NCBI GenBank assembly: GCA_022800315.1
Contig: JAAWQC010000002.1
Coordinates: forward strand, 1 to 64,000
Source: Clostridiales bacterium
Lineage (GTDB): Bacteria; Bacillota; Clostridia; Oscillospirales; Acutalibacteraceae
Length of the DNA stretch: 64,000 bases
Direction of reading: 5' to 3'
Shown: positions 22,335 through 61,151 of the stretch, piece after piece
How positions within the stretch are numbered: position 1 is the stretch's first letter
How the letters are laid out: every line of letters starts with the position of its first letter
Notes under the pieces: generated by a model
What the model was told of the DNA's origin: nothing
Database searches by the model: none
The model's input: the letters and a program-made list of their open reading frames with translations, nothing else
Position numbers and translations under genes: made by a program

Positions 22335-22339
22335 CCTTG

Positions 22340-22615
22340 TACAGGCTGAGATGGGAACGAGTACTCCCGCTGACAGGCAGTCAAGAGAGCCGCCGGATGG
22401 TGCGAGGCGGACTGCGGGCGGAAGGAAATACCTCCCGGAGCCGCGACCTGAACGTCGGTGTTTCCGCCGATTGAGTAGGGAAGACGCGCGGGCGCGTTAC
22501 AGCCCATGGCGTTCACGGCCCAGCCGCCGACGCCGCGAGGCCGGCTTTGCCGGTAAACTGAGGTGGTACCGCGAGTCAATTCGCCCTCTGCAGGAAACTG
22601 CGGAGGGTTTTATTA
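22340..22615 (+). promoter_or_regulatory. T-box leader (tyrosine-specific) upstream of tyrS
   Basis: T-box core aggtggtaccgcg (22561-22573) followed by a terminator-like cgccctctgc..gcggagggttttatt; Stem I elements agagag...ggtgcga; candidate specifier gaaaTACctcc with TAC at 22429-22431 (Tyr codon). Confidence 0.92.
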
Positions 22616-56105: not shown

Positions 56106-57449
<1,344 letters not shown>

Positions 57450-57688: not shown

Positions 57689-57718
57689 TTGCATAGAAGG
57701 GGGAGGATATGCTATACT
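57689..57718 (+). promoter_or_regulatory. Candidate sigma-A promoter of the pyr operon
   Basis: TTGCAT (57689-57694), 18-bp spacer, TATACT (57713-57718), 58 bp before the pyrC start. Confidence 0.55.
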
Positions 57719-57775
57719 ATCTATTTAGGTAAAGGCAACACAGGAAACATTACCCTTTCAAAGGAAGTGGAAGCG

Positions 57776-59059
57776 ATGGATAAGCTTTTCATACGCGGAG
57801 CCGTTATTGTCGATCCTCTGAACGAGGCTGCTTCCAGCCTGCCGGACAGCGATATTCTCGTGGTAGACGGCCGCGTGGAAGAGGTCGGCCGTGATCTTTC
57901 CGACATAGATGCTGAAATTTTAGAGGCTGACGGCCTGTGCTGCGCCCCCGGCCTGGTGGACATGCACGTACACCTGCGGGACCCGGGACAGACGGATAAG
58001 GAAGACATCCTGTCCGGCTGCCGGGCAGCGGCGGCGGGCGGTGTCACCTCTCTGGCCTGCATGCCCAATACACAGCCGGTATGCGATTCGCCTGATATTA
58101 TATCCTATATATTAAAAAAAGCGCAGGCGGCTGACGCGCGGGTGTATCCCGTCGCGGCGGTGACCCATTCTCTCGGAGGGGAACGGATGACCGATTTTGC
58201 CGCACTCAAAAGCGCCGGTGCGGTTGCCGTCTCCGACGACGGCCGGCCGGTCCCTACGGCCGGCGGTATGCTGGACGCCATGCGTCTGGCGGCCGAAACC
58301 GGTCTTCCGATCCTTTCCCATTGTGAGGAGATGTCCCTGACCCGGGGCGGCATTATAAACGAGGGGGAGGTATCCCACACCCTCGGTATCCCCGGAATCC
58401 ATCCCGCCGCCGAAGAGGCGGCCACGGCAAGGGAAATTGCCCTGGCGGCGGCTACCGGCTGTCCTGTCCATATCTGCCACGTCAGCACAAAGGGCAGTGT
58501 GGAGCTGCTTCGTGACGCTCGGCGCCGGGGAGTGCCGGTGACGGGTGAGACCGCTCCCCATTATTTTTCACTGACCGACGACCTGCTCAAGGGGCGGGAC
58601 GCCGACTACCGTATGAATCCTCCGCTGCGGACCCCCGTGGACGTGCGCGCCGTGATCGAAGGCCTTTGCGACGGAACGCTCTCCGCCATAGCCACCGACC
58701 ACGCTCCGCATACCCCGGAGGACAAGGCGGATTTTTTAAAGGCGCCCAACGGTTCGGTGGGAATGGAGACCTCTCTCGCCGCCGGGATCACCTTCCTGGT
58801 GCGGGAAGGGCATCTGTCGCTGAACCGCCTGATTCAGCTCATGTCCGCTGAGCCGGCCCGGCTGCTGGGGATTCCCGGCGGAACGCTGCGAAAAGGTGTC
58901 GCTGCTGATCTCGTGCTGTTTGATCCCAACGAACGATGGACAGTGGACGAAAAGCGGCTGCACGGTAAATCCCAAAATTGTCCGTTCAAAGGCATGATCC
59001 TTTACGGCAGGGTAAAATACACCTTGCTGGGCGGACGGCTGGTCTATACCGATCAATAA
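57776..59059 (+). CDS. pyrC: Dihydroorotase
   Basis: PGLVDMHVHLRDPGQTDKEDILSGCRAAAAGGVTSLACMPNTQPV, HICHVSTKGS, ATDHAPHTPEDK. Confidence 0.97.
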   Translation: MDKLFIRGAVIVDPLNEAASSLPDSDILVVDGRVEEVGRDLSDIDAEILEADGLCCAPGLVDMHVHLRDPGQTDKEDILSGCRAAAAGGVTSLACMPNTQPVCDSPDIISYILKKAQAADARVYPVAAVTHSLGGERMTDFAALKSAGAVAVSDDGRPVPTAGGMLDAMRLAAETGLPILSHCEEMSLTRGGIINEGEVSHTLGIPGIHPAAEEAATAREIALAAATGCPVHICHVSTKGSVELLRDARRRGVPVTGETAPHYFSLTDDLLKGRDADYRMNPPLRTPVDVRAVIEGLCDGTLSAIATDHAPHTPEDKADFLKAPNGSVGMETSLAAGITFLVREGHLSLNRLIQLMSAEPARLLGIPGGTLRKGVAADLVLFDPNERWTVDEKRLHGKSQNCPFKGMILYGRVKYTLLGGRLVYTDQ

Positions 59060-59083: not shown

Positions 59084-60004
59084 ATGGCGCTGGACAGACT
59101 GATCGACGCGATACGGAAAATGGACAACCCCACGGTGGCGGGCCTTGACCCCCGACTGGAATACCTGCCGGAGTACATAAAACAGGAGGCCTTTCGCCAG
59201 TGGGGCGAGACGCTGGAAGGCGCCGCCGCCGCGATCCTGCGGTTCAATAAGGAACTGATCGACGCCCTGTACGACGTGGTTCCCGCTATTAAACCACAGG
59301 CGGCCTATTACGAGCTGTTCGGCTGGCCGGGTATGCGTACCCTGCAGGAAACCATGGCTTATGCTGACGAAAAGGGCCTGTTCGTCATCACCGACGGCAA
59401 ACGCAACGACATCGGCTCCACCATGGAGGCGTATGCCGCCGCCCATCTGGGCGAGACGCAGGTGGGGGAGCAGGTCTGCCATGCCTTCGACGGCGACGCG
59501 CTGACGGTCAACGGCTATCTGGGCACCGACGGCATTCAGCCGCTGCTGCAGGTGTGCCGCCAGCGGGACCGGGGCATTTTTGTGCTGGTCAAAACCTCTA
59601 ACCCCTCTTCGGGAGAGCTGCAGGACCTCCGCCTTGAAAGTGGTGAGACGGTATACCGCCGCATGGGCGCTTTATGTGAGAGCTGGGGGGAACAATTGCC
59701 GGGCAAATACGGCTATTCCGGCGTGGGGGCCGTGGTCGGCGCCACCTGGCCCGACCAGCTGGCGGAGCTTCGGAAAGCGCTGCCTCACACCTTCTTTCTG
59801 GTGCCGGGTTACGGCGCGCAGGGAGGAGGCGCTCAGGATGTAGCCGGCGCTTTCGATCAGGACGGCATCGGGGCGGTAATCAATTCTTCACGCGGCATCC
59901 TCTGTGCCTGGAAAAAGGAAGAAAACTGCCCGGCGGAGGATTTCGCCGGCGCCGCCCGGCGGGAGGCCCTGCGCATGAAAGAAGCCCTCGCGGCGGTGAG
60001 ATAA
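59084..60004 (+). CDS. pyrF: Orotidine 5'-phosphate decarboxylase (type 2)
   Basis: TVAGLDPRLEYLP, AIKPQAAYYELFGWPGM, VITDGKRNDIGSTMEAYAAAHLG, VKTSNPSSGELQD. Confidence 0.95.
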   Translation: MALDRLIDAIRKMDNPTVAGLDPRLEYLPEYIKQEAFRQWGETLEGAAAAILRFNKELIDALYDVVPAIKPQAAYYELFGWPGMRTLQETMAYADEKGLFVITDGKRNDIGSTMEAYAAAHLGETQVGEQVCHAFDGDALTVNGYLGTDGIQPLLQVCRQRDRGIFVLVKTSNPSSGELQDLRLESGETVYRRMGALCESWGEQLPGKYGYSGVGAVVGATWPDQLAELRKALPHTFFLVPGYGAQGGGAQDVAGAFDQDGIGAVINSSRGILCAWKKEENCPAEDFAGAARREALRMKEALAAVR

Positions 60005-60065: not shown

Positions 60066-61151
60066 ATGGACAAGATGAAGCCGGCAACCCTGCTGCTGGA
60101 GGACGGGACCGAATATCAGGGATATTCCATGGGCGCTGAGGGAGCCGCCTTCGGCGAGGTGGTATTCAACACCGATATGACCACCTACCAGGACCTGCTG
60201 ATGGATCCCACGTATTCGGGTCAGATCGTGGTGCAGACCTACCCTCTGATCGGCAACCGGGGCGTGGACCCGGTCAGCGAATCACGGCTGGTGGCCAGCG
60301 GGTATATCGTGCGTGAATGGTGTGTGGAACCTACCGACGCCCATGAGTTTGTGACGCTGGACGAATATCTCAAGCAGCAGAATATTATAGGCCTCTGCGG
60401 TATTGATACCCGCGCCCTGACCCGTCATATCCGCGATCACGGCGTCATGAATGGCGTGATCACCCCCACACTGGATAACAGGGAAGAGCTTATTCGGCAG
60501 GCAAAGGCTTACCGTGTGCCGCCGGCAGTGGGCGCCATCACGGTCAGTGAGCCCAGGCGTTATGCCGCGGAAAATTCCCGTTACGAGCTGGCTATCCCGG
60601 ACTACGGCTTCCGCCGCTCCATCCTTGAATATTTTCTGCGGCGCGGCTGTTCCTGTACGCTGTATCCCGCCCATACGCCGGCGGCGGAACTGCTGGCGTC
60701 GGGTCCCGACGGCATCATCCTTTCTGACGGACCCGGCGATCCGTGGGACAATCCGGAAATCGTGGAGATCATTAAGGAGTTATCTGACAGCGGCAAGCCG
60801 CTGTTTGGTTGGGGTCTCGGCCACCAGCTTATGGCGGTGGCCGCCGGCGGCTCCATCATCAAGCTTCCGGTGGGGCACCGGGGCAGCAATCAGCCGGTCC
60901 GCGACAGCCGCAGCGGGCGTATCATGGTGACCGAACAGAATCATGGCTATACGGTGGATGAAAGCAGCCTCGACACCGGAAAAGCGGATGTGTTCCTGCA
61001 CAATGTCAACGACGGCACGGTGGAGGGTGTGCGTTATCTCGACCATCCGGTCTTTACCGTCCAGTTTGAGCCCTCCGACGGCAATGGTTATCAGGATACC
61101 GCCTGGATTTTCGACGAATTCGTCTCGATGGTGAGCGAACACAAGGCCTGA
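60066..61151 (+). CDS. carA: Carbamoyl-phosphate synthase small subunit with a degenerate glutaminase active site
   Basis: Full-length CarA architecture (LLLEDGTEYQGYSMG...GEVVFNTDMTTYQDLLMDPTYSGQIVVQTYPLIGNRG, GIDTRALTRHIRDHGVMNGVI, GIILSDGPGDP, VGHRGSNQPV, QNHGYTVDE), but FGWGLGHQ in place of FGICLGHQ and VQFEPSDG in place of VQxHPEASP. Confidence 0.95.
   Translation: MDKMKPATLLLEDGTEYQGYSMGAEGAAFGEVVFNTDMTTYQDLLMDPTYSGQIVVQTYPLIGNRGVDPVSESRLVASGYIVREWCVEPTDAHEFVTLDEYLKQQNIIGLCGIDTRALTRHIRDHGVMNGVITPTLDNREELIRQAKAYRVPPAVGAITVSEPRRYAAENSRYELAIPDYGFRRSILEYFLRRGCSCTLYPAHTPAAELLASGPDGIILSDGPGDPWDNPEIVEIIKELSDSGKPLFGWGLGHQLMAVAAGGSIIKLPVGHRGSNQPVRDSRSGRIMVTEQNHGYTVDESSLDTGKADVFLHNVNDGTVEGVRYLDHPVFTVQFEPSDGNGYQDTAWIFDEFVSMVSEHKA

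Follow-up and report, generated by a model that had tools for sequence, protein, structure and literature searches.

The genome of this Clostridiales bacterium encodes two carbamoyl phosphate synthetases (CPS), one of which, as judged from its genes, is without glutaminase. In the window (the whole stretch of 64,000 nucleotides that was analysed), the small-subunit gene of the pyrimidine operon, here called carA', encodes a CarA in which all three residues of the glutaminase triad are replaced. The gene pair carA'-carB' is probably best explained as coding for an ammonia-dependent CPS, with a pseudo-glutaminase as scaffold, that serves as the pyrimidine isozyme and is paired with a glutamine-dependent canonical isozyme. 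The product of carA'-carB' would be a CPS that no longer hydrolyses glutamine, in which CarA' keeps its fold and its CarB-binding role; since the triad of CarA' is lost, free NH3 would have to enter CarB' directly, where it would react with carboxyphosphate. More widely, some bacteria probably make carbamoyl phosphate (CP) from free ammonia, and in many of them the only CPS apparently cannot split glutamine, contrary to the textbook rule that a bacterial CPS takes its nitrogen from glutamine.

Small Subunit without a Catalytic Triad

The reading frame of carA' has 361 codons, begins with ATG, contains no internal stop and lies upstream of carB' (as shown in Table 1), so the preliminary description of a full-length, uninterrupted gene was correct. 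It had also placed Gly, Glu and Ser in the triad columns, and both its codon coordinates and the alignment to E. coli agree with this; an alignment artefact is ruled out, because the fold match agrees with the alignments, whether to E. coli or to human CPS. S47, K202 and P360 (E. coli numbering) are likewise replaced in the window CarA', by T, R and Y respectively, and the last position is Tyr throughout the window clade. The Cys-His-Glu triad that marks a glutamine-dependent CPS II is not found in CarA', and it is close to certain from the missing residues that glutaminase activity has been lost, as had been proposed.

Table 1. Positions in the window of carA', its triad columns and the neighbouring genes.
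Feature	Position	Strand	Basis
carA', triad-less CPS small subunit (pseudo-glutaminase), 361 aa	60066..61151	+	domains, alignment, AlphaFold2 model
Gly250 codon GGT, column of E. coli Cys269	60813..60815	+	alignment to E. coli CarA
Glu335 codon GAG, column of E. coli His353	61068..61070	+	alignment to E. coli CarA
Ser337 codon TCC, column of E. coli Glu355	61074..61076	+	alignment to E. coli CarA
carB', CPS large subunit, 1068 aa	61182..64000, to contig position 64388	+	domains, residue comparison
pyrC, dihydroorotase, same operon; listed start TTG, true start may be internal	57689..59059	+	
pyrF, orotidine-5'-phosphate decarboxylase, same operon	59084..60004	+	
gdhA, NADP-specific glutamate dehydrogenase (ammonia-assimilating), divergent upstream neighbour of the operon	56106..57443	-	

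By its domains, its CarA fold and the adjoining carB', CarA' belongs to the CPS small subunit (CarA) family. Both the CPSase_sm_chain and the class-I glutamine amidotransferase (GATase) domains score above cut-off, and an AlphaFold2 model built from 24 sequences (pLDDT 88.9) matches E. coli CarA with a TM of 0.93 and human CPS1 with a TM of 0.85, from which the fold is predicted to be retained. CarA' also scores 352.7 bits against TIGR01368 ("glutamine-hydrolyzing CPS small subunit"; cut-off 307.35), so automatic annotation would misname it; pipelines label such Cys-less CarA "glutamine-hydrolyzing", and metabolic models of these bacteria may be wrong in consequence.

The glutamine-site residues L270, Q273, N311, G313, G241 and G243 are still present in the window CarA', as they would be if CarA' bound glutamine without hydrolysing it and relayed the nitrogen status to CarB'. 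However, several of them are part of the core motif and are kept for the fold, and S47 is replaced both in the window CarA' and in 35 of 49 relatives, so a glutamine sensor of this kind is very improbable.

Conservation and Selection

Gly/Glu/Ser is common to all three members of the window genus and to a separate genus (G037), which answers the question of whether the substitution extends across the clade. The triad-less carA' of the window clade sits in the same pyr operon in 11 of 11 relatives examined, the operon being only partly visible in G070 and G139, where contigs end early, and in G037. Between congeneric genomes, dN/dS is 0.07-0.11 for CarA' against 0.12-0.17 for the canonical CarA paralogue, and 0.056-0.089 for CarB'; these values come from the simple Nei-Gojobori method with dS near or above 1 and are approximate. 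CarA' is not decaying.

A canonical second carA does exist in the genome, as a decaying duplicate would require, and an intact second copy had been named in advance as grounds for regarding carA' as one. The copy is real, but the inference from it does not hold: the triad change is conserved across genera under strong purifying selection, and Gly-CarA also occurs in G858, whose genome is one contig with a completeness rating of 100%. Decay, or an error of assembly or sequencing, is therefore scarcely credible; a sequencing error or pseudogene is rejected on the conserved triad change together with the low dN/dS, which bears out the earlier argument for selection.

Large Subunit and the Proposed Route of Ammonia

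The window CarB' is identical to E. coli at every catalytic position checked in both ATP-grasp halves, so that both residue sets of a functional CPS large subunit are present; the UMP-site residues and all carbamate-tunnel residues checked are also kept. The window-clade CarB' retains 96-99% of the catalytic-domain columns that are nearly invariant in Cys-partnered CarB, and in G037 the catalytic residues are kept save for one conservative R to K change. Among CarBs paired with non-Cys CarA generally, the catalytic residues are intact wherever readable, the sister subclade described below excepted. CarA'B' thus shows what would be expected of an ammonia-dependent CPS, namely an absent cysteine and an apparently intact synthetase.

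According to work cited in PMC6245113, E. coli CarB can produce CP from NH3 in vivo without its small subunit, and blockage of the tunnel in E. coli CPS stops the use of glutamine but not that of ammonia. With the intact CarB' and the genomes whose only CarA lacks the cysteine, this work suggests that CarA'B' would make CP from NH3. The ammonia levels that E. coli CPS requires are very high and likely outside the physiological range (PMC6245113); we infer that CarA'B' uses NH3 at physiological concentration, and no change explaining a better ammonia affinity was found in CarB'. How a bacterial CPS works at natural ammonia can now be tested, as can resistance to glutamine-analogue inhibitors at the CPS step.

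Second CPS and Nitrogen Supply

The operon runs pyrC, pyrF, carA', carB', pyrK, pyrD, and this site together with the UMP-site residues indicates that carA'B' is probably the pyrimidine CPS. About 14 kb downstream of carA', at contig positions 75182-76297, lies a second, canonical carA with the motifs FGICLGHQ and FSVQFHPEA. It belongs to a nitrogen cluster past the window that consists of type III glutamine synthetase (GS), two glutamate-synthase-like ORFs, glnA, an ANTAR regulator (PF03861), canonical carA and carB, so that the canonical pair adjoins the gltB-glnA-ANTAR genes. The genome also encodes aspartate carbamoyltransferase and a second transcarbamylase resembling ornithine carbamoyltransferase (OTC). 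Carbamate kinase was rejected as another source of CP, none scoring above cut-off in this genome.

Because canonical carAB is present, the proposed "obligately ammonia-dependent" CPS may hold for the CarA'B' isozyme and does not hold for the cell, and the further claim that pyrimidine and arginine precursors alike come from free ammonia is not supported. Two CPS isozymes in one genome are known from B. subtilis and L. plantarum, according to work cited in PMC6245113. Here the glutamate dehydrogenase (GDH) gene adjoins the pyr operon, as it does in G001 and G002, which suggests that carA'B' works under ample ammonia; the canonical carA-carB::dapF would be the glutamine-dependent isozyme, presumably switched on with GS and glutamate synthase (GOGAT) when ammonia is scarce. 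The pairing of carA'B' with canonical carAB would then parallel that of GDH with GS/GOGAT, and the isozyme pair may select the nitrogen source. No known RNA regulators were found near the pyr or gln genes, and a simple scan upstream of gltB, glnA and carA found no ANTAR-type double-hairpin target, so that the nitrogen-dependent switch is read from gene order alone. The organism is presumably of gut type, to judge by its named relatives. Guts and fermenters hold millimolar ammonium, which would favour an ammonia-dependent CPS.

Small-subunit swapping, rather than whole isozymes, could also set the nitrogen source, CarA' competing with the canonical CarA for CarB. In G850 a single contig (L265, L248) carries Gly-carA followed by carB in the pyr operon and, about 28 kb away in an ANTAR-carA-dapF cluster, a Cys-carA with no carB beside it, which suggests that two small subunits share one CarB there; the canonical CarA might likewise pair with CarB', and this counts against the main reading. 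Yet each carA of the window genome has its own adjoining carB, and CarA' and its CarB' have diverged together, so swapping is an unlikely explanation.

The canonical carB ORF continues into a DapF domain (G000, contig C36:76284 onward), and the corresponding fused ORF of the congener G001 matches Pfam DAP_epimerase (L055:14467-18513). Such in-frame carB::dapF (diaminopimelate epimerase) fusions of 1344-1356 aa occur in many Clostridia genomes; a literature report of the fusion was looked for and none was found. Downstream of one carB::dapF locus there is a lysine riboswitch (L005:5713-5888, minus strand), which is upstream of an ORF resembling aspartate-semialdehyde dehydrogenase (a name read from sequence). 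The window itself has a T-box leader at 22339-22591, barely over the Rfam gathering threshold.

Comparison with Known CPSs

Reviews place bacteria only under glutamine-dependent CPS II (PMC6022934, PMC6245113), and glutamine has been generalised, from E. coli, as the physiological nitrogen donor of all bacterial CPS (PMC6245113). CarA'B' is like bacterial CPS II (E. coli CarAB, the pyrimidine and arginine CPSs of B. subtilis) in being a heterodimer, in domain order, in the catalytic and UMP-site residues of CarB and in its site in a pyr operon. It differs in that CarA' is without Cys-His-Glu and is predicted to have lost the glutaminase half-reaction by which CPS II is defined, and for this reason CarA'B' is classed as a variant CPS.

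In vertebrate CPS I the glutaminase domain survives in inactive form, the Cys being replaced by Ser294 in human, and external NH3 is thought to enter by another route (PMC4655335). The earlier remark that only the Cys is lost in vertebrate CPS I needs a caveat, as Rana CPS1 keeps the triad and yet cannot use glutamine (PMC4655335). CarA'B' resembles vertebrate CPS I in its apparently inactive class-I GATase scaffold with the Cys replaced and in the proposed use of external NH3; unlike it, CarA'B' is of independent origin, has separate subunits and carries Gly instead of Ser, and it is biosynthetic, not ureagenic, with no indication of regulation by N-acetylglutamate. The fused chain, N-acetylglutamate activation and vertebrate lineage of CPS I by descent are not found, the subunits being separate and nested among bacterial CarB. 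CarA'B' would accordingly be a bacterial CPS II by descent that functionally resembles vertebrate CPS I.

The proposed shift from glutamine to ammonia would be convergent with that of Alcolapia fish CPS III, which, unlike CarA'B', is an animal urea-cycle enzyme (PMC7657897). The NAD synthetase family shows the same recurrent choice between glutamine and ammonia as nitrogen donor (PMC3376133), in a different enzyme and fold with a nitrilase-like glutaminase domain. In the open-access literature, to which the search was confined, no report of a bacterial ammonia-dependent CPS or of a triad-less CarA was found.

Recurrent Loss of the Cysteine across Clostridia

A DNA pattern for Gly at the CarA nucleophile matched 21 of 397 genomes in the order; these fall in 13 of 169 genera. 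Class-wide, 16 of 392 genomes have a nucleophile codon that does not start with T (14 Gly, 1 Ala, 1 Asp). In the family, about 25 of 122 CarA (about 20%) are without Cys by the author's tally, mostly with Gly and three with Ser. Pattern searches of the Cys-to-Gly kind overlook CarA whose flanking motif has changed too; a contig scan with general CarA patterns gave at least 80 loci. On a CarB tree the Cys/non-Cys label of the partner needs 11 changes, at least nine of them forced by well-supported branches, the tree being a quick one with long branches and a sampling enriched for non-Cys, and the counts being blind to loss versus regain. As read from these sequences, loss of the Cys in CarA is recurrent across Clostridia, and why the nucleophile becomes almost only Gly can now be tested. 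In one single-contig genome (G813, L267) the genes stand in tandem as carA(Gly)-carB-carA(Cys)-carB.

S47, K202, C269, H353, E355, G359 and P360 are kept in all 111 canonical CarA. Among 49 non-Cys CarA these positions vary, S47 being kept in 14, K202 in 19, H353 in 11, E355 in 22 and P360 in 24, while G241, P242 and the non-catalytic Q310 (49/49) stay fixed. Relaxation thus centres on glutamine chemistry and, to judge by the E. coli tunnel mutants, of which G359F is PDB 1M6V, on the tunnel carrying NH3 out of CarA. Some CarA keep the Cys and have lost His and/or Glu (CNV, CNE, CYE, CMD at L326 of G134, L308 of G003, L060 of G146, and L098), and these are possible intermediates.

Sister Subclade with a Degraded Large Subunit

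The subclade that is sister to the window genus (G004, G008, G011, G104, G139, G144 and G146; carB' loci L048-L054 and L067, in pyr operons) has lost CarB' residues of the second ATP-grasp site in all members and of the first to varying degrees, so the two catalytic residue sets of a functional large subunit are not found there; its CarA' has lost catalytic residues as well. Scored on the columns nearly invariant in Cys-partnered CarB, the carbamoyl-phosphate domain retains 55%, the carboxyphosphate domain 73% and the allosteric domain 98%, the last on only eight such columns, and the UMP-site residues K954, T974, T977, K993 and T1042 are kept. Across CarA' and CarB', dN/dS is 0.05-0.08; CarB' as a whole gives 0.053-0.071 and its allosteric domain 0.027-0.051, and the second carB is intact in these genomes. 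The sister-subclade proteins look like a maintained pseudo-CPS pair, for which they are candidates.

From this degraded yet conserved pair, whose allosteric domain is best preserved, it could be argued that the pyr-operon CPS as such is becoming a non-catalytic, UMP-responsive regulatory or structural complex while the canonical CPS makes the CP, and, the sister CarB' being catalytically dead, the role of the pyr-operon CPS may already be drifting. For the window genus and G037, where CarB' keeps the catalytic residues checked and the nearly invariant catalytic-domain columns, this is improbable, and the ammonia-dependent isozyme is preferred. Tentatively, recurrent selected loss of glutaminase in Clostridia may have given ammonia-dependent CPSs, the sister pyr CPS then having become fully dead, binding UMP and regulating or scaffolding pyrimidine synthesis. 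A dead pyr-operon CPS pair would be a kind of pseudoenzyme unreported so far as the literature searched shows.

Genomes Whose Only CarA Lacks the Cysteine

The CarA family model finds full-length CarA without the Cys, and no other full-length CarA, in 23 genomes with a completeness of 90% or more. G008 has two copies, both Gly; the sole-copy genomes are G454, G279, G309, G184, G217, G230, G448 and G403 (set 1), G835, G692, G540, G599, G691, G794 and G832 (set 2), and G083, G133, G135, G109, G024, G059 and G150 (set 3). Transcarbamylases were sought in 22 Cys-less genomes, with G628 (89% complete) in and G794 and G832 out: 20 of the 22 have, besides an aspartate carbamoyltransferase scoring above cut-off, another transcarbamylase, taken for OTC, and G448 and G403 have one each. 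As both CP-consuming pathways appear to be present in those 20, their CP would have to come from CPSs with a Cys-less CarA. Any single metagenome-assembled genome may be incomplete, and it is unlikely that incompleteness accounts for all 23.

In G454 (L200), G448 (L199) and G691 (L274) the sole Gly-carA-carB::dapF is immediately preceded by an OTC-like gene, which suggests an arginine-linked ammonia-dependent CPS in these genomes.
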